From a virus, in the IMG/VR virus record IMGVR_UViG_3300018043_000001, positions 1-50,412 of that record: 50,412 nt of DNA. One strand, given 5' to 3'. The notes below the pieces were generated by a model, which saw only the letters and a program-made list of their open reading frames with translations, did not search any database and was not told the DNA's origin. Each line of letters begins with the position of its first letter. Positions within the stretch are counted from its first letter, which is position 1. Made by a program: the position numbers and the translations under genes. This document shows positions 10,500-49,581 of this stretch, piece after piece.

Positions 10500-10837
10500 C
10501 GGCGCATCCTCGCAATCGCGGCCAGGTGGGTTTCGATCGCCGCCAGACGATCCTCGATCGAAGGCTCGGGCGGCGCGGGGGGCGGACCTGAGAGGTAGAG
10601 GCGCATCCGGTACTCGGCCCCCGCGGCGATCTCCTGGATGCGCTCGAACGCACCCTCGTCAGCCGGGATCGGCACCTCCACGAATAGCTCGTCTTCGCGT
10701 TCGTCGAGGTCGTTGATCTTCGGATCCAGCTTGCGCTTGCGCGCTACGGGCTCGAAGCCGGCGACGTTCAGCGCTCGCGTGCAGTCCGAGAAGCGCCGCG
10801 CGCTGCCGCCGAGGATCGCTGTGGGTAGTTGCTCCAT
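10496..10837 (-). CDS. Small tail-region protein, 113 aa
   Basis: The protein has no recognised family. Residues 30-60 are strongly charged (RKRKLDPKINDLDEREDELF), the middle is an alpha/beta stretch, and the C-terminus is a Pro-rich linker followed by a helix with heptads (IEDRLAAIETHLAAIARMRR) that may oligomerise. It has a strong ribosome site (AGGAG before ATG 10837). Set between tail-tip proteins and the collar fibre, it is probably a fibre-attachment or tail assembly protein; this is inference from position. Confidence 0.55.
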   Translation of the reverse strand: MEQLPTAILGGSARRFSDCTRALNVAGFEPVARKRKLDPKINDLDEREDELFVEVPIPADEGAFERIQEIAAGAEYRMRLYLSGPPPAPPEPSIEDRLAAIETHLAAIARMRR

Positions 10838-28865: not shown

Positions 28866-29039
28866 CTATGCGCGGGGTGGAGCAGCGGAGTGCTCATCGG
28901 CCTCATAAGCCGAAGGTCGCGGGTTCAAATCCCGCCCCCGCCCTACAAACGCTCCCAGCGCGTACGCGAGCAGCAAGGGCCAGAACAGCACGGCCAGCAT
29001 CGCCACGGAGAGCGCGAGATCTCTAATCGAAGAAATCAT
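28866..29039 (-). CDS. Small single-TM protein, overlaps the tRNA antisense
   Basis: ATG 29039 (MISSIRDLALS) leads into a TM helix (AMLAVLFWPLLLAYALGAFV). From about residue 34 the frame continues through the complement of the tRNA (GRGRDLNPRPS...) and stops at 28866, just beyond its 5' end. The start overlaps the stop region of the zinc gene by 17 bases, so the TM part looks real; the last 24 residues may be fortuitous. Function unknown, perhaps part of a small membrane set with 29130-29324. Confidence 0.4.
   Translation of the reverse strand: MISSIRDLALSVAMLAVLFWPLLLAYALGAFVGRGRDLNPRPSAYEADEHSAAPPRA
28871..28943 (+). tRNA. tRNA-fMet (CAT), initiator type
   Basis: The whole cloverleaf is visible: acceptor CGCGGGG with CCCCGCC (position 1-72 is a C-C mismatch, a hallmark of initiators), D stem GAGC/GCTC, anticodon stem TCGGC/GCCGA with loop CTCATAA (anticodon CAT), and T arm GCGGG-TTCAAAT-CCCGC. 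The start CGCGGGGTGGAGCAGC is the signature opening of bacterial tRNA-fMet. The third anticodon-stem pair is C31-G39 rather than the usual G-C. CCA is not encoded. It lies on plus inside the minus-strand late operon. Confidence 0.88.
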
Positions 29040-31620: not shown

Positions 31621-34600
31621 CTATGGTGCGACTTCATAGAGCAGCTCGGCGTCACACGAGCAGCCGGGGTGGTCTCCGGGCAGGAAATAGGCGTTGTCGG
31701 GGAAGCTGTCGGGGTTCTTCAACGCATCGTCGGTGAAGCTGTGGAACTCGACGCCATCGAGCGCCTCGTGGGGCTCGAACGGATGCACGGTCGTGGCCGT
31801 GTGGTGCCAGACGTAACGCTCGACGTTGGCGCCTCCGACGCCCGCGAGCTTCTGGATCGTGGCGCCCGAGCCGATCTGCGGCACGAACCCGGACATGCCG
31901 CCGCCCGTGCTGGCGTCGATCGTCAGAGCGCTCGATGGAGCCCCACCGGCGACCGAGAGCACGGCGCGCAGCGTGCCCACCGGCACGAGCGCGTCAGGAT
32001 CCAGCTCGGCCGGATCCTCGGAGAGCAGCTGCTGCCCGATCGTGTTGAGCGCATGCTTGAACACGTTCCAAGCGGCGTCGAGCTGCACGGCCAGCGCGTT
32101 GCCCGCCTGGTCGACCGCCTGCTGTGGGATGTCCACGAGCTTGCCGATCAGGCGCAGCGACTGTCTCTGTGCGGCGCCGGTCCAGCGCATGAACTGCTCG
32201 CGCAACGCTGCCCAATCGTCGTTCATGAGCCCCGCGGCGGTGAGCCCCGCGGCTGCCATCGCGTCCTTGCCGAGGATGAACGGAACGTGCTCGTTGCGGC
32301 GCTGGTCGATCTTCGTGCGCACCGTCTCATCCTTGCCGAGCTTCGTGCGCATCTTCGCCCCGGCGCGCTCCATCTGGCGCAACATCGCGGCGTTGGCCGC
32401 GGCCTGCAGGCGGATCCGCAGCTGACGATCGACGTCCATCAGCTGGCGGCTGATCGAAGCGCCTCCAGAAGCGGCTGTGAGCGCCGCTGGCGGCCCCGGC
32501 TTGGGCGGCACGGGGTTCTGTGCGGCGGGCGGCGGACCCGGCTGTGCGGGCGCGGGAGCGCTCACAGGCTTGTCAAGCCCGACGCCGGCATCGGCCTGAG
32601 GGCGCGTGGGCTGCGTCGGGATCAGGCCCTCGCCCATGTCCACGCCGCCGGGCTTGATCCCCGGCACCATCCCCGACACCGTGATCGGCGGCACGACGAG
32701 GGTGGGATCGAAGCGCTGCGCGTACTCCATCAGCAGGTTGAGCGGCAGCGCCCTGATGTCCATGACGCGGCGCATCTCCAGCTCTGAGACGGTCGGCGCA
32801 TCATCTTCGGCAAAGCCCGCCGCCTTGCGGTATGCCTCCGCCGAGATGATCATGTCCTCGTAGGCCTTCTGCGAGTCGGCGGTGCGGTCCGGGTGCGTCA
32901 CCAGCTCAACCGGGTCATACCAGAGCACGCAGCGACGCACCCACTCATCAGGCACGCCGTAGGACTGCAGGTAGGGCCGCAGGAACGCGCCGGTGAGAGC
33001 GTCCACCGCTTCGATCACGGCCGGCTCGACGTGATGACGGAAAACGTCGTCACTCACCTGCCAGGCCGACCAATGGTTGAGGTCGGCGATACCCATGATC
33101 ACTTCCTTGGGCAGATCGAAGCCGGTGGCAATCACGCCGATCAGCTCTTCGCGCGTCTTGGAGGCCTCCGAGTCGAAGCTGGAGGCGAAGTCGATGTGCC
33201 TGATCTTGTCCAGGAACTCGCCGGGGCCGCGAACCACCAGCGGCACGACGGACTCGGCCGTGCCCTCGTTGGTGATCGGCGCCATCATCGCCTTGGTCAA
33301 ATCAGCGATGAAGGTGTCAGCGTCGGGGTCCTGGTCGTCGTTGGGCTCGTTGGCGAAGGTGATCTCGTTGGGGAAGCAGAGCAGGCCGCGCCCTGAGAGG
33401 CGTGAGCGGCCCGTGGCGCGGATGATGCGCCGCAGGATGCAGATGGCCTCGCACTCGTCGAGCATCGCCTTCACGGGGCTGTCAGCGAGCAGGTGATAGC
33501 GAGGATCCGGCGTCCAGATGCGGCTGATCACGCAGGTGTCGGGATCGAGGTCGACCCAGGGAATTACCCCGTTGGGGTTATCTGGCATCTCGCGCAGACG
33601 CCAGCTCGTGTCGGTGACCACCAGCTCGTCGACCGAACGGATGCCCCATTCCTCTTCGCCGGTCTGCTCGTTCTGGCGCCCGAGCAACCAGCCTTCGCCC
33701 GCCACCGACAGGTTGGTGGAGAGATCGCCCATCAGGTGAGCCATCGCCATGCGGCCGTTGCCAAGCTCCTGCAGGCCCAGCTCAGCGAGCCCGGAGAGAT
33801 CCATCGGGACGCCCTCGGCGTGCGCCAGAGGGACCGGCTCGTCGCTCTCAGCGCCCGGCAGGTAGACCGCCGGGAAGAGCTTCATCCGCGCGCAGCAGTG
33901 CGCCAGGAACTTCACGGCGTAACGCAGCTCGGGGACCGATGACCTGTAGGTGTTGCCGGTGAAGTAGACCGTGCCCCGGCGACGCGCCAACCATGTGCGG
34001 TTGGCAACCATCGGACACCAAACCTGGCCGCTGTAGGTCACGCGCTTGACGACGGTGGCGTTCTCCCACTCGCGGCTGGCTGCGTCCAGCGGGTTGACGG
34101 TTGCCTTGTCGCGGATATGCAGTCGCCAGCAGCCTTCATCCTTCAAGTAGATGTGTGGAGTGCGACCAGTCAGGATGCTGGCGAGCGCCAGCGGCTCCAA
34201 GCGGGCTCGAACGGACTGCGTGACGCACACGTTGGCGCCCGTGCGCGCGTCGCGATGGCCGTCGGCATCGACAGACGTCTGAATGAAAAGCTCCAGCTGC
34301 GCCAGCGTCAGTGAGCGCACGAACCCGGTAGCCACCACCTTGTCGGGTGCGGGCGCGATAGCACCCAGCCGCTGTCCGGCATACTTATCGAGCGCGAAGA
34401 CAGCCATATCCTCGTCGGTCCCCTCGCGCCAGGCAGGGTATTGCAAGCCGCGCGTGGTCGGTACCGCAGGCCCGAAGACGGCCGTCAGAGCCGCGCGGAT
34501 ACGCGCTACGTTCTCCGGATAGACGCGCCACGATTGCGTGATGACGACAGCGCCAGACGCCTTGATGGTCCCCTCTGTCCAGAACCACGCAACCAGCTCC

Positions 34601-35214
34601 ACGAACGCATCTGTGTAGACAGCCACGTCTGGCAAGTCGGCACATGGCGCCGCCGTGATGAGGGAGTGCCGAGTGGTCAGCTCATCCGAGCGCGTCAGAG
34701 CGCACACCAAAGTCGCAGCAGGACGCGGACCATGCGCAGGAGCGGAAGGCGGCGGCAAGCCCAGCCGCTTCGCGTGACGCCGCTCGCGCCGAATGTCGAC
34801 ATCCGCCTGCGTGAATGCTTCCCGTCGTGCAACCGTGGGCCACTTGTGGTCGAGGGTCGACAGCGACGAGTGCAAGCGGCCCTGCATCGACAACATAGGG
34901 CGCTCGGAGACATCGAAGACCTTGACGGCCTTGACGGGCTGCCACTCGGACTCTCCTGTCTCCTGGTTGAGCGTCAGCGCCAAGTCGCCCGCCACAACCT
35001 CACCGTACGTCAGCCAACCGCGCGTCGTAAGAATCTCCGTCTCGGGGTCGACGCACCAGGCATCAGACTGCCAACCGGCGCGCAGCGCCTTCTGGCGCTT
35101 GGCCTCGTTGCGGTCCGAGATGTCGATGCGCGTCGCCGCGGCCGTCAGCACACGCAGGCGCGTGGCTTTCGACTTGTTCTTGAACCAGCCGGTTTGAGCT
35201 CTGGTGACGGCCAT
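31621..35214 (-). CDS. Portal-MuF fusion interrupted by an intein
   Basis: ATG 35214 overlaps the DUF1360 stop. Portal residues 1-53 end at ...RAGWQSDAW, the intein follows (368 residues), and the portal resumes with TYRSSVPELRYAVKFLAHCC. Extein total is about 829 residues. Portal features: DELVVTDTSWRLREMP, WVDLDPDTCVISRIW, DLPKEVIMGIADLNHWSAW. The C-terminal part ends PGDHPGCSCDAELLYE, the His-Pro-Gly-Cys-x-Cys signature of the MuF (head morphogenesis) domain, so portal and MuF are one chain. The portal forms the ring through which DNA enters the head. Confidence 0.82.
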   Translation of the reverse strand: MAVTRAQTGWFKNKSKATRLRVLTAAATRIDISDRNEAKRQKALRAGWQSDAWCVDPETEILTTRGWLTYGEVVAGDLALTLNQETGESEWQPVKAVKVFDVSERPMLSMQGRLHSSLSTLDHKWPTVARREAFTQADVDIRRERRHAKRLGLPPPSAPAHGPRPAATLVCALTRSDELTTRHSLITAAPCADLPDVAVYTDAFVELVAWFWTEGTIKASGAVVITQSWRVYPENVARIRAALTAVFGPAVPTTRGLQYPAWREGTDEDMAVFALDKYAGQRLGAIAPAPDKVVATGFVRSLTLAQLELFIQTSVDADGHRDARTGANVCVTQSVRARLEPLALASILTGRTPHIYLKDEGCWRLHIRDKATVNPLDAASREWENATVVKRVTYSGQVWCPMVANRTWLARRRGTVYFTGNTYRSSVPELRYAVKFLAHCCARMKLFPAVYLPGAESDEPVPLAHAEGVPMDLSGLAELGLQELGNGRMAMAHLMGDLSTNLSVAGEGWLLGRQNEQTGEEEWGIRSVDELVVTDTSWRLREMPDNPNGVIPWVDLDPDTCVISRIWTPDPRYHLLADSPVKAMLDECEAICILRRIIRATGRSRLSGRGLLCFPNEITFANEPNDDQDPDADTFIADLTKAMMAPITNEGTAESVVPLVVRGPGEFLDKIRHIDFASSFDSEASKTREELIGVIATGFDLPKEVIMGIADLNHWSAWQVSDDVFRHHVEPAVIEAVDALTGAFLRPYLQSYGVPDEWVRRCVLWYDPVELVTHPDRTADSQKAYEDMIISAEAYRKAAGFAEDDAPTVSELEMRRVMDIRALPLNLLMEYAQRFDPTLVVPPITVSGMVPGIKPGGVDMGEGLIPTQPTRPQADAGVGLDKPVSAPAPAQPGPPPAAQNPVPPKPGPPAALTAASGGASISRQLMDVDRQLRIRLQAAANAAMLRQMERAGAKMRTKLGKDETVRTKIDQRRNEHVPFILGKDAMAAAGLTAAGLMNDDWAALREQFMRWTGAAQRQSLRLIGKLVDIPQQAVDQAGNALAVQLDAAWNVFKHALNTIGQQLLSEDPAELDPDALVPVGTLRAVLSVAGGAPSSALTIDASTGGGMSGFVPQIGSGATIQKLAGVGGANVERYVWHHTATTVHPFEPHEALDGVEFHSFTDDALKNPDSFPDNAYFLPGDHPGCSCDAELLYEVAP
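33952..35055 (-). mobile_element. Intein with LAGLIDADG homing endonuclease in the portal
   Basis: The intein starts at Cys (35055-35053) in WCVDPETEILTTRGW (block A) and ends VYFTGN before Thr (N codon 33954-33952). The middle shows two dodecapeptide-type motifs, ELVAWFWTEG and LELFIQTSVDADGHR, of a LAGLIDADG endonuclease. The penultimate residue is Gly instead of the common His, and block F has VWCP. It should splice itself out to restore the portal. Confidence 0.85.
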
Positions 35215-35540
35215 CAGACACGCTCCGAGATGATGCCGGCGATGGCGCTGAACGCCAGCACGGCAGTGATGACGAGACAGGCGGATGCGGCGAGCGATCC
35301 GAGCAAGACGATCGCTACGGCGATCCAGGGTGAGACGCACCACGGGCAGGTGATGAACTCGGCGAGCTTCGGGCGCGCGACCACAGCGGCGCGCATCCCC
35401 GTCATGTCGCGACGGTCGATGTAGCGGCTGCCCGCCAGCTTCAAGCGCACGGGCGCCGTGATCGTGTCGCTGCCCACGAGTCTCGTGAGCCGGTAGGTCG
35501 CCAGGGCGTCAAGCGCCAGCAGGGTTGGGTCGCTAGTCAT
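35214..35540 (-). CDS. DUF1360-type membrane protein
   Basis: The protein follows the DUF1360 plan: LLALDALATYRLTRLVGSDTI, an Arg-rich mid-segment, then CPWCVSPWIAVAIVLLGSLA with the CPWCxSxW motif and a second TM (LVITAVLAFSAIAGI). DUF1360 proteins are frequent in actinophage genomes near structural genes, function unknown; the Cys pair may be redox-active or metal-binding. 108 residues, start ATG 35540 overlapping the previous stop. Confidence 0.68.
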   Translation of the reverse strand: MTSDPTLLALDALATYRLTRLVGSDTITAPVRLKLAGSRYIDRRDMTGMRAAVVARPKLAEFITCPWCVSPWIAVAIVLLGSLAASACLVITAVLAFSAIAGIISERV

Positions 35541-45680: not shown

Positions 45681-45990
45681 GGCCGTGCTCGATTGCGGCG
45701 ATCAGCCCTGGGTCGGTCGGCATGCGGTGCTCGGCGAGCGCGGTGAGCATCTCCGCGCGCAGCTTCCCGTAGAAGCTGGTGAGGTGCCTCATGTCCGTGC
45801 GCAGGGCCAGGTTCTCGCGCTGGAGGTCGCCGATCGTGCTGGCGTCGCGAATCACGATCTCCGCGGCCTCCTCGTAGCGCTCGCGCAGGTCGGAGAGCTG
45901 ACGACGCAGGTCGGCAACCTGATGGATCAGCTCGCGCGGCGTGGGGCCGCGTCCGCCGCCGAGGAGCGCGGTGAAGGCGTCAGCAGGCAT
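45658..45990 (-). CDS. Coiled-coil protein, 110 aa
   Basis: About residues 20-85 form heptads (LIHQVADLRRQLSDLRERYE; ENLALRTDMRHLTSFYGKL), so it should be a dimeric coiled coil. The end is a short helix. The gene overlaps both neighbours, in the early-late boundary region. No known function. Confidence 0.52.
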   Translation of the reverse strand: MPADAFTALLGGGRGPTPRELIHQVADLRRQLSDLRERYEEAAEIVIRDASTIGDLQRENLALRTDMRHLTSFYGKLRAEMLTALAEHRMPTDPGLIAAIEHGLDGPSPF

Positions 45991-46699
45991 GCTGGCGCTC
46001 TACAGCCAGGAACACGTCGAAGGGGCGATAGCCGGTCTCCCGCTCGGGCACGACGTAGCCGTGCAGCTCGCGCTGGCGCTTCTCGCAGCGACCCGAGCGC
46101 TCGCACAGGTAGTAGCCGTGCCAGGGGCGAAAGCAGCGCTGGCCGCGACGGCCGCAGAGCAGGCAGCTCACGAAACCGCGCTGCTTGATCTCCATGCGCA
46201 TCGCGAGCCACTCGTCAGCGCCCGCGTAGCGCTTGCGCATCCGCGGGCTCGGGTCGCTCACTGGTCCGGCTTGCGTTTGAACCACATCCGGCAGTTCACG
46301 CACAGCCAACCCTTGCGAAGCCAGAGCCGGCACGGAATCGTGTTGTGCTTGCAGTGCATTGCGTAGGTCTCGCATCCGGAAGACGTCGTAGGGGAGGTAG
46401 AAGCCGGGCTCTCCGTCGATGATGGTGCCCGTCTGCTGATTCTGGCGAAAGCGGCAAGCGCTCACCCTGCTGCACACGAACATGCCCATCACCCACGGGT
46501 AGAACCAGCCTGTGCCCCGCCGGCCACAGATCGCGCACTCGACGACGCCGGAACGCCGCAGCTCATCGAGCACGGCGCGTCGCAACCGGGGGGCGTGGTA
46601 GGAGCGTTCAAACGCGGGGAAGCCCACGTCCATAGGCACGGGCAGCGCCGCTGGGGCGGCGGCACTAGGCGCTGGACGTGCCGATGATACCGCAGTCAC
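45980..46699 (-). CDS. Protein with two tandem zinc modules, 239 aa (or 217)
   Basis: Two copies of one domain are visible: VVECAICGRRGTGWFYPWVM...FVCSRVSACRF and FVSCLLCGRRGQRCFRPWHGYYLCERSGRCEKRQ, each with CxxCGRRG, a PW pair and a later CxR.xxC, then a segment ending PYDVF or PFDVF. Each should bind one zinc. This is an internal duplication. GTG 46699 is five bases after the upstream stop; ATG 46633 (MDVGFPAFERSYHAP) is an alternative and would fit a -10-like TATCAT at 46684-46689 on minus. Role unknown; DNA or RNA binding likely. Confidence 0.6.
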   Translation of the reverse strand: MTAVSSARPAPSAAAPAALPVPMDVGFPAFERSYHAPRLRRAVLDELRRSGVVECAICGRRGTGWFYPWVMGMFVCSRVSACRFRQNQQTGTIIDGEPGFYLPYDVFRMRDLRNALQAQHDSVPALASQGLAVRELPDVVQTQAGPVSDPSPRMRKRYAGADEWLAMRMEIKQRGFVSCLLCGRRGQRCFRPWHGYYLCERSGRCEKRQRELHGYVVPERETGYRPFDVFLAVERQHAC

Positions 46700-47823: not shown

Positions 47824-48080
47824 TGCTCCGCGGCGATCGGCACCCACTTGGACTCGGGCACCTGCGAGGGATGAGCGGCTTGCGGCCAGCGGCAGCGCAC
47901 ACAGCCGGGGTAGACCTTCGTGTTGCCGAAGGGCACGAAGGTGTGATCGAGCTTCGGCGACTGGCGCGGGTAGCTGTGGACGATCTCGATGACCCGCTTG
48001 ACAAGCGCCGCCTGCTCGATCGCCTCGCGCTTGACCTGCACGTCGCGGGCATAGTCCTCGGTGGATTGAACCTCAGTCAT
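47820..48080 (-). CDS. Small Cys-containing protein, 86 aa
   Basis: ATG 48080 (MTEVQSTEDYARDVQVKREA) with GAGGACT before it. The end carries HTFVPFGNTKVYPGCVRCRWPQ, with a CxxC motif that may bind zinc, typical of small actinophage proteins with a YPGCxxC end. The N-terminal half is a helix. Overlaps neighbours on both sides. Function unknown. Confidence 0.55.
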   Translation of the reverse strand: MTEVQSTEDYARDVQVKREAIEQAALVKRVIEIVHSYPRQSPKLDHTFVPFGNTKVYPGCVRCRWPQAAHPSQVPESKWVPIAAEQ

Positions 48081-48252
48081 AGTCCTCGTAGGGGCTGTGG
48101 GCGACTCGGGGCGCCGGCTCAGGCGTCCGCTCGGGTAGTACAGCATCAAGCGTAGTTTGCATCTCGGGATGCTCGCGTGCCCACTTGCGGGCCTGCTCGA
48201 TCCGCTTCTCCTGCTCCTGTGTGCGAGGCTTAGTAGAGGGCCGCTCGGACAA
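48073..48252 (-). CDS. 59-residue hypothetical protein
   Basis: TTG at 48252, seven bases after GAAGGA, begins MSERPSTKPRTQEQEK; it then has a helix (RIEQARKWAREHPEMQTTL) and ends RVAHSPYEDYD. It overlaps the upstream gene by 23 bases and the downstream gene by eight. A short charged helical protein; no family recognised. Confidence 0.5.
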   Translation of the reverse strand: MSERPSTKPRTQEQEKRIEQARKWAREHPEMQTTLDAVLPERTPEPAPRVAHSPYEDYD

Positions 48253-48457
48253 AGCAATCCTTCGCTTCGAGCAGCTTGCGCAGGCCTGTGGTCACCTCGG
48301 CGCCGTGGGGCGAGGAGGCGAGGTCGTGCGCGAAGCGGTCGGCGAGGTCGCCGATCGCCTGCGAGATGGCCTTCGCGTTGGTGTTGGTCAGGTGGCTGCT
48401 GGAGAACCAATGCAGGACCGCTTCCTGCGCGGGGTGCAGCTCGGACTGAGGGGGCAT
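48230..48457 (-). CDS. Short in-frame product: Acb2-like 75-aa protein
   Basis: ATG 48457 with a strong site (AGGAG CAAC) inside the longer reading frame yields MPPQSELHPAQEAVLHWF... ending DCFVRAALY. The family proteins are about this size, so the short form may be the functional sponge, and the longer fusion may be read-through of the upstream gene. Sharing one frame without a stop is unusual in this operon, where neighbours overlap in different frames. Confidence 0.5.
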   Translation of the reverse strand: MPPQSELHPAQEAVLHWFSSSHLTNTNAKAISQAIGDLADRFAHDLASSPHGAEVTTGLRKLLEAKDCFVRAALY

Positions 48458-48871
48458 GTTGCTCCTGTTCGTTGTGGGTGTGTCCTCGGGGAAAGCTCGC
48501 GCGAGCCCGGAGACGAGCGAGCCGAAGCCGTGCGCGTTGGGCTGTACGGCATGCCAGCGCAGGCAGAACACCAGGCGCTTGCGCTGCACGGCGCTCAGCT
48601 GGAAGGCACAGGCCTCCTGGTTGACCTGGGCGAGGCGCAGCAGCCGCAGGGCGCGCTCAGGGCCGCAGCGGTACAGCGCGTGGATCAGCCAGTACAGGCG
48701 GATCCGCTCGTACTCGGGATCCTCGCGCTCGATCGCGTCAGCGAGCATCTTGGCGCCGTCGCGGGCGCCGCGGTCGCGGATCTGGCGTTTGAGATCTGAT
48801 GCTTTCAGACGTGCGGCGTTGGCCAGCTTGATCGCCTCCAGGCGTTGGTCTTTGAGGGTCAGGACGCTCAT
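48230..48871 (-). CDS. mIHF-like domain fused to Acb2-like domain, with internal start
   Basis: Residues about 5-105 resemble actinobacterial integration host factor (mIHF): an opening helix (LKDQRLEAIKLANAARLKAS), Lys/Arg-rich (DLKRQIRDRGARDG), then WLIHALYRCGPERALRLLRL and LSAVQRKRLVFCLR, as in the helix-two-turn-helix core that bends DNA. Residues 139-213 are a separate helical domain (HLTNTNAKAISQAIGDLADR...GLRKLLEAKDCFVRAAL) like small phage proteins of the Acb2 hairpin family, known to sequester cyclic nucleotides in anti-CBASS defence. An in-frame ATG at 48457 has AGGAG four bases upstream, so the short 75-residue protein (48230-48457) is probably also made. Assignment is by pattern only. 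Confidence 0.55.
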   Translation of the reverse strand: MSVLTLKDQRLEAIKLANAARLKASDLKRQIRDRGARDGAKMLADAIEREDPEYERIRLYWLIHALYRCGPERALRLLRLAQVNQEACAFQLSAVQRKRLVFCLRWHAVQPNAHGFGSLVSGLARAFPEDTPTTNRSNMPPQSELHPAQEAVLHWFSSSHLTNTNAKAISQAIGDLADRFAHDLASSPHGAEVTTGLRKLLEAKDCFVRAALY

Positions 48872-49581
48872 CGGCGATCCGGCCCGGTCAGGACCACCTC
48901 GAACGTCATCCCGCGCAGGCGGCTGCAGGTGCGGGCATCGACGATCTGGTCCCAGTCCGATCTGGCCCAGTTGGACGCGATCAGGATGGGCTTCTCGGCA
49001 GCGTAGCGGCGGTCGATCAGCTCCGCCAGCTGCTCATGGCGCCAATCCGAACCGCGCTCGGCGCCGAAGTCGTCGAGCGCGAGGATCTCGATATTGACCG
49101 CGCGCTCCCAGGCCAGCCCGCACACGCCCACGTCATCGAAGCGCTGCAGCTCGCGCAGCCACGCGCGGATGTCCCAGAAGGCGACGTCCATGCCGCGCTG
49201 GTTGATCAGCCGTGAGCAGATCGCGGCGAGCAGGTGTGACTTGCCGCGGCCGGGAGCGCCGCAGATCGCCGGGGCGGGCAGCATGCAGTCGCCCTTGTCG
49301 TCAAACCAGTTCTTGACGCCGAACAGCGCATCCTTGTTGTGCTCGTCAGTGTCAAAGCGCCTGCCCAGAAAGCGGTCGGGGATCTTCGAGCTGACCCGGC
49401 GGCGCATCGCCGCGATGCGCGGATCGCACTGCGCCGCGGGGATTCCGAACTCGGCGCCGCAGCGCGCGCAGACGAACGTCCAGACGTCGCCCTCGGCGTC
49501 GATCAGCTCCATCTCACCGTTGCAGGGATCGTCCTGGTGCCCGCGCTGCTTCTGGATATCGCGGTGCCGGTGAGCCTTCAA
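48868..49581 (-). CDS. DnaC-like helicase loader (AAA+ ATPase)
   Basis: Walker A GAPGRGKSH (residues 108-116), Walker B ILALDDFG (166-173), sensor-like LIASNWARSDWD near 205, and arginine-rich C-terminus, as in DnaC/IstB-type ATPases. The N-terminus has a Cys pair (CARC, 38-41, and Cys20/Cys52), perhaps a zinc element that binds the helicase or single-stranded DNA. It loads the replicative helicase (host DnaB or a phage one outside the window) at the phage origin. TTG at 49581 overlaps the previous stop (TTGA). Confidence 0.82.
   Translation of the reverse strand: MKAHRHRDIQKQRGHQDDPCNGEMELIDAEGDVWTFVCARCGAEFGIPAAQCDPRIAAMRRRVSSKIPDRFLGRRFDTDEHNKDALFGVKNWFDDKGDCMLPAPAICGAPGRGKSHLLAAICSRLINQRGMDVAFWDIRAWLRELQRFDDVGVCGLAWERAVNIEILALDDFGAERGSDWRHEQLAELIDRRYAAEKPILIASNWARSDWDQIVDARTCSRLRGMTFEVVLTGPDRR

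Follow-up and report, generated by a model that had tools for sequence, protein, structure and literature searches.

Acb2 is a hexamer that binds cyclic di- and trinucleotides. Its topology consists of a short helix and two long antiparallel helices (PMC12043709), and in T4 Acb2 a ligand-stacking residue, Phe82, is described (PMC12657218). The sponge protein Tad2 is known to sequester gcADPR and cyclic dinucleotides (PMC12043709). Hairpins of the Acb2/Tad1 type in actinobacteriophages have already been annotated as CBASS antagonists (PMC11953737, PMC13348362). The second system of relevance is the actinobacterial IHF, mIHF/sIHF (NF041260; 6TOB, 4ITQ). Here a phage gene is described that joins in one reading frame two domains, which by profile comparison are a remote relative of mIHF and a hairpin from a remote sister family of Acb2/Tad1.

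The analysed window is an entire virus record of 50,412 bases (Table 1). The fusion gene is a minus-strand frame of 213 codons, from an ATG at 48871 to a stop that ends at 48230, with zero internal stops, and the sequence-only reading had placed the boundary between its two halves correctly. At third codon positions the IHF-like part has a GC content of 0.87, the linker 0.83 and the hairpin 0.89, values that fit a coding frame in a phage of 67% GC. The initiating ATG has no strong Shine-Dalgarno sequence and overlaps the stop of the DnaC-like gene in an ATGA at 48868-48871. It is extremely improbable that an assembly or sequencing artefact fused two separate genes; this is a single metagenome-type virus record, and searches of viral contigs by helicase loader and by capsid protein found no close relative for comparison, but the codon-position signature continues in the same frame across the linker, and the linker is stop-free in both other frames, so that one indel would not yield two tidy genes. 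A frame error in the linker was likewise thought unlikely.

Table 1. Coordinates of the fusion gene, its parts and the preceding gene in the window.
Feature	Position	Strand	Evidence
DnaC-like helicase loader gene, upstream of the fusion gene	48868..49581	minus	phrog_50 E=1.7e-27; IstB_IS21
Whole gene, 213 aa, putative long product (IHF-like domain, linker and hairpin)	48230..48871	minus	uninterrupted ORF; coding-type GC by codon position
mIHF-like domain, residues 7-104	48560..48853	minus	NF041260 E=3.3e-6; 38 bits on the 73-sequence mIHF profile, shuffles at most 9.4; hhalign 96.6%
Linker, residues 105-138, partly disordered in model	48458..48559	minus	pLDDT <50 at residues 130-136; GC3 0.83
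Internal Shine-Dalgarno AGGAG, 4 nt before Met139	48462..48466	minus	sequence; codon-usage probability ~0.03
Hairpin domain and probable short product, Met139-Tyr213, 75 aa	48230..48457	minus	phrog_5120 E=1.8e-19; 15/15 invariant residues; model pLDDT 92

The major capsid protein of the phage matched 777 phage records, almost all of them belonging to actinobacteriophages, and the host is therefore likely an actinobacterium. Several other features of the window were recorded. A 59-codon ORF with a TTG start (48073-48252, minus), without family match, overlaps the 3' end of the fusion gene, with which it may share an operon as a small gene. For the fusion protein itself, a Pfam match to P2 GpU at E 0.12-0.18 was taken as chance. 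A 239-aa protein (45980-46699, minus) without a confident family carries the cysteine motifs CAICGRRGTGWFYPW and CLLCGRRGQRCFRPW, which resemble each other and look like an internal repeat. An ORF of 1240 aa (31621-35343, minus) matches a portal family over residues 466-1010 only and extends far beyond this match at either end, and the adjacent gene at 29321-31612 matches both portal and head maturation protease families. A tRNA-Met gene (28870-28944, plus) is oriented against the capsid and portal genes around it.

The NCBIfam model of actinobacterial IHF (NF041260) matches residues 7-101 over profile positions 7-98 of 102, and its score of 27.5 bits does not reach the curated equivalog cut-off of 60 bits. 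When the N-terminal half was searched against the PDB by phmmer, mIHF (6TOB) was the top match, at an E of only 0.78. A 73-sequence profile was built from mIHF proteins collected from actinobacterial genomes, where they are present in 138 of 150. The phage domain scored 38 bits on this profile, as against at most 9.4 for 4,871 shuffles and at most 4.2 for unrelated ORFs of the window, and hhalign extended the similarity end to end over 97 columns. The best pairwise scores of the phage domain were mostly to divergent mIHF types, and the positions invariant across these (A, R, G, QR) are present in it. Furthermore, it is strongly basic, with a pI of 10.1 and a net charge of +9, mIHF having 10.06 and +7. 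It differs from mIHF/sIHF in being phage-borne and fused to a hairpin, and in the basic loop before the last helix, which in mIHF is SRRVRGLG or a variant and here reads EACAFQL. The structure model of the N-terminal half was made without alignment depth and is unusable; with this poor model Foldseek gave no mIHF match, and Foldseek with the full-length model is meaningless for the same reason. A mixed alignment of phage and mIHF sequences was too divergent for scanning.

As judged from these profiles, the N-terminal domain is truly homologous to mIHF, remotely, and it may bind or bend DNA, with which the pI of 10.1 is compatible. The proposal that this half is an actinobacterial IHF nucleoid protein thus holds for the homology but not for 'nucleoid protein', given the sub-cut-off score and the vanished basic loop. 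Those two findings, together with the empty Foldseek result, would also fit a likeness limited to a common helical fold, in which case the N-terminal domain would bend no DNA and would serve otherwise, for example by binding the helicase loader. Such a reading is very unlikely, however, as the alignment spans nearly the whole mIHF domain and stands far above shuffles, the residues invariant in divergent mIHFs are kept, and the domain is strongly basic.

No second mIHF-hairpin fusion was found in the searches, and among 80 related loci, with flanks of up to 5 kb, none had a significant mIHF-like ORF near the hairpin. The N-terminal half had no significant relatives in viral contigs, genomes, phages or plasmids, and two mIHF queries against 50,697 phage records returned none. 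The only other phage-borne mIHF came from one viral contig, in which a standalone mIHF gene (L330:3989-4324) lies near dUTPase-like and HNH-like genes. These scans detect close peptide matches only, and the rarity is therefore a lower-bound statement. Within them, the mIHF-hairpin combination is new by sequence comparison and built of known parts. A new protein combining nucleoid and anti-defence roles had been envisaged; the fused frame is real and the sole example found, but a joint function goes beyond the evidence.

Residues 139-212 belong to phrog_5120 and phrog_1761, an unannotated phage family with the signature GLRKLLEAKDCFVRAAL. The phage hairpin is a full member, keeping every one of the 15 residues that are invariant in the 58-sequence family alignment; the polar ones among them are H22, E64, K66, D67, C68 and R71 in the numbering of the short form. 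Genes of the family occur in 507 or more IMG/VR loci and 277 or more phage records, including phages of Vibrio, Erwinia, Acinetobacter, Mycobacterium and Gordonia as well as others, and the product is almost without exception a small 'hypothetical protein'. Its gene contexts vary widely, for example beside capsid or topoisomerase genes. Members are usually standalone, whereas in the fusion protein the hairpin is C-terminal to the mIHF-like domain. The model of the hairpin (pLDDT 92) places helices at 9-18, 26-46 and 52-73, a short helix and two long antiparallel ones, so that the Acb2-type topology anticipated for the C-terminal half was recovered in the prediction.

The relation of this family to Acb2 (PF24729; T4 Vs.4 7UQ2, phage p26 8H2J) was found to be remote. 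Neither PADLOC nor the Pfam model PF24729 (Acb2_Tad1_hairpin) matched the fusion protein, and PF24729 gave one match, at E=0.05, among 58 hairpin family members. The family was compared by hhalign with 75 aligned Acb2/Tad1-hairpin proteins of viral contigs and phages, T4 Vs.4 included, which yielded 90.1% with 58 family sequences and 94.7% with 138; column-shuffled controls reached at most 12%. On the Acb2-hairpin profile, 122 of the 138 family members outscored the best of 2,694 shuffled members. The phage hairpin by itself scored only 6.0 bits there, and the Acb2 link therefore runs via the hairpin family. In a BFVD fold search the first match beyond the family's look-alikes, after five better ones, was a protein annotated as Acb2/Tad1 hairpin (probability 0.92, E not significant), and two further such proteins, also without significant E, came lower down; in the PDB fold search with the hairpin model, Acb2 was absent from the list. 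The second helix is homologous, REKSLALTKLEEAMFWANAAIAR against GPELTAGLRKLLEAKDCFVRAAL. T4 Phe82 falls at Leu212, with Tyr213 adjoining, when TKLKEASMWACRAVF is laid on RKLLEAKDCFVRAAL by eye only. These comparisons make the hairpin family a distant sister group to the Acb2/Tad1 hairpin, outside Pfam's model; the phage hairpin shares with Acb2 the predicted topology and the small size of a phage protein, but its family is a distinct one, Pfam's Acb2 model does not match it, and the stacking aromatic is apparently replaced in that by-eye alignment. Of the 'Acb2-like sponge' proposed for the C-terminal 75 residues, the homology and the topology stand, and the sponge is beyond the evidence.

Fusions of the hairpin in other phages bear on its possible role. 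A WDGH domain (PF25311) follows the hairpin in three loci (L078, L333 and L340), a Tad2-like domain (PF11195) in L078, and a crAss001_48-like domain in four (L066, L355, L373 and L378). The protein at L078:4917-5996 comprises 360 aa, with an LLEAKDC hairpin, a WDGH domain and a Tad2-like domain. In L361:1587-2192 and L409:1422-2420 other N-terminal sequence precedes the hairpin and no internal start was recognised, which shows that the family has N-terminal fusions elsewhere too; the added sequence of L361 contains a CxxC-type zinc motif. The Tad2-like and WDGH domains are missing from the fusion protein studied here, and the tie to them is one of association alone. Taken with the Acb2/Tad1 annotations, these fusions support, but do not prove, a link of the hairpin family to nucleotide-signal evasion, and by analogy the hairpin may act as a sponge.

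The same diversity of gene contexts and fusion domains fits a general adaptor, in which the hairpin would be an oligomerisation or docking module only, binding no nucleotide, and the mixing of long and short forms would set the number of DNA-binding arms per assembly for replication or DNA packaging architecture. The position directly after the helicase loader and the known Acb2 ligand residues, which are not clearly kept, agree with this possibility. It is nevertheless rather unlikely, since the six invariant polar residues suggest a conserved site, and the Tad2-like fusion and the Acb2/Tad1 homology point to nucleotide signals.

Five internal in-frame NTG codons occur in the gene, and a Shine-Dalgarno sequence precedes Met139 only. 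This ATG (48457-48455) is separated from AGGAG (48466-48462) by the spacer CAAC, 4 nt, and the phage's own spacers measure 4-6 nt, as in AGGAG-AGAC-ATG, AGGAG-TCCC-ATG and AGGAG-AAAC-ATG. Under the codon usage of the phage, Arg-Ser would be written AGG-AGY with a probability of ~0.07 x 0.42 = 0.03. Standalone homologues begin at the position of Met139, and in 99 of 139 hairpin homologues elsewhere a start with an SD before it lies no more than 25 codons from where the domain begins. The claim of a strong internal start at 48457 is thus well supported at the sequence level, by spacing, by the sole SD and by homologue starts, and the gene probably gives two in-frame products, the long form and the hairpin alone. 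Loss of a TAG stop at this site, in the TAGGAG arrangement of other genes, was rejected, as that base is out of frame here. TAGGAG, with TAG overlapping the SD, precedes the gene starts at 10837, 28757, 31612 and 36558 (minus).

An SD and start intact at the family's usual place, a poorly structured linker, standalone hairpins in most relatives and a single known example would also be expected from a fortuitous fusion of neighbours, in which the stop of an mIHF-like gene disappeared and its frame now runs on into a hairpin gene with translation of its own; the short product would then do the work, and the long one would be an mIHF-like protein with a passenger and no joint function. This account is somewhat unlikely, though a serious contender. 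It has against it that the IHF-like domain is always made with the hairpin unless cleaved, and that the hairpin has various partners in other phages, N-terminal ones included, from which it follows that fusions are kept in the hairpin family.

The best explanation of the whole, put forward tentatively, is an mIHF-type arm joined to a nucleotide-binding hairpin, made in long and short forms within the replication module. A divergent mIHF-type domain, putatively nucleic-acid-binding, a flexible linker and a phage hairpin are encoded directly after the helicase loader; the long form of 213 aa would be translationally coupled to the loader, and the short form of 75 aa, hairpin only, would arise from the SD-preceded ATG at 48457. 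By analogy with Acb2, the hairpin would most likely self-associate and bind a small nucleotide-type signal, and through the basic arm at the N-terminus part of the complex would be anchored on DNA. Direct observations are the ORF, the two homologies, the predicted topology of the hairpin and the SD with its start; the two products, oligomerisation, ligand binding, DNA binding and any coupling of these are inferred. The explanation is supported by mIHF homology across the domain with its net +9 and pI 10.1, by the kinship of the hairpin family to Acb2/Tad1 with its Tad2-like/WDGH fusions and 15/15 invariant residues, by the match of SD, spacing and position to standalone homologues, and by a capsid closest to actinobacteriophages. 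It is weakened by the lost basic loop and the sub-cut-off mIHF score, by the failure of PF24729, the 6.0 bits of the hairpin alone, a PDB search without Acb2 and Phe82 at Leu212 in our own reading, and by the fact that no second fusion shows selection for it. A more specific version is improbable, namely that the protein is a DNA-tethered binder of nucleotide signals. Its mIHF-like arm would bring the Acb2-related hairpin, as sponge or sensor, to DNA, and through the proportion of long and short forms phage replication or gene expression would be coupled to an alarm nucleotide of the host.

In conclusion, the gene pairs two protein types and presents a phage-carried relative of mIHF. Of the leads from this analysis, the unannotated hairpin family is the most useful, a whole set of candidate nucleotide-signal inhibitors that is directly testable.
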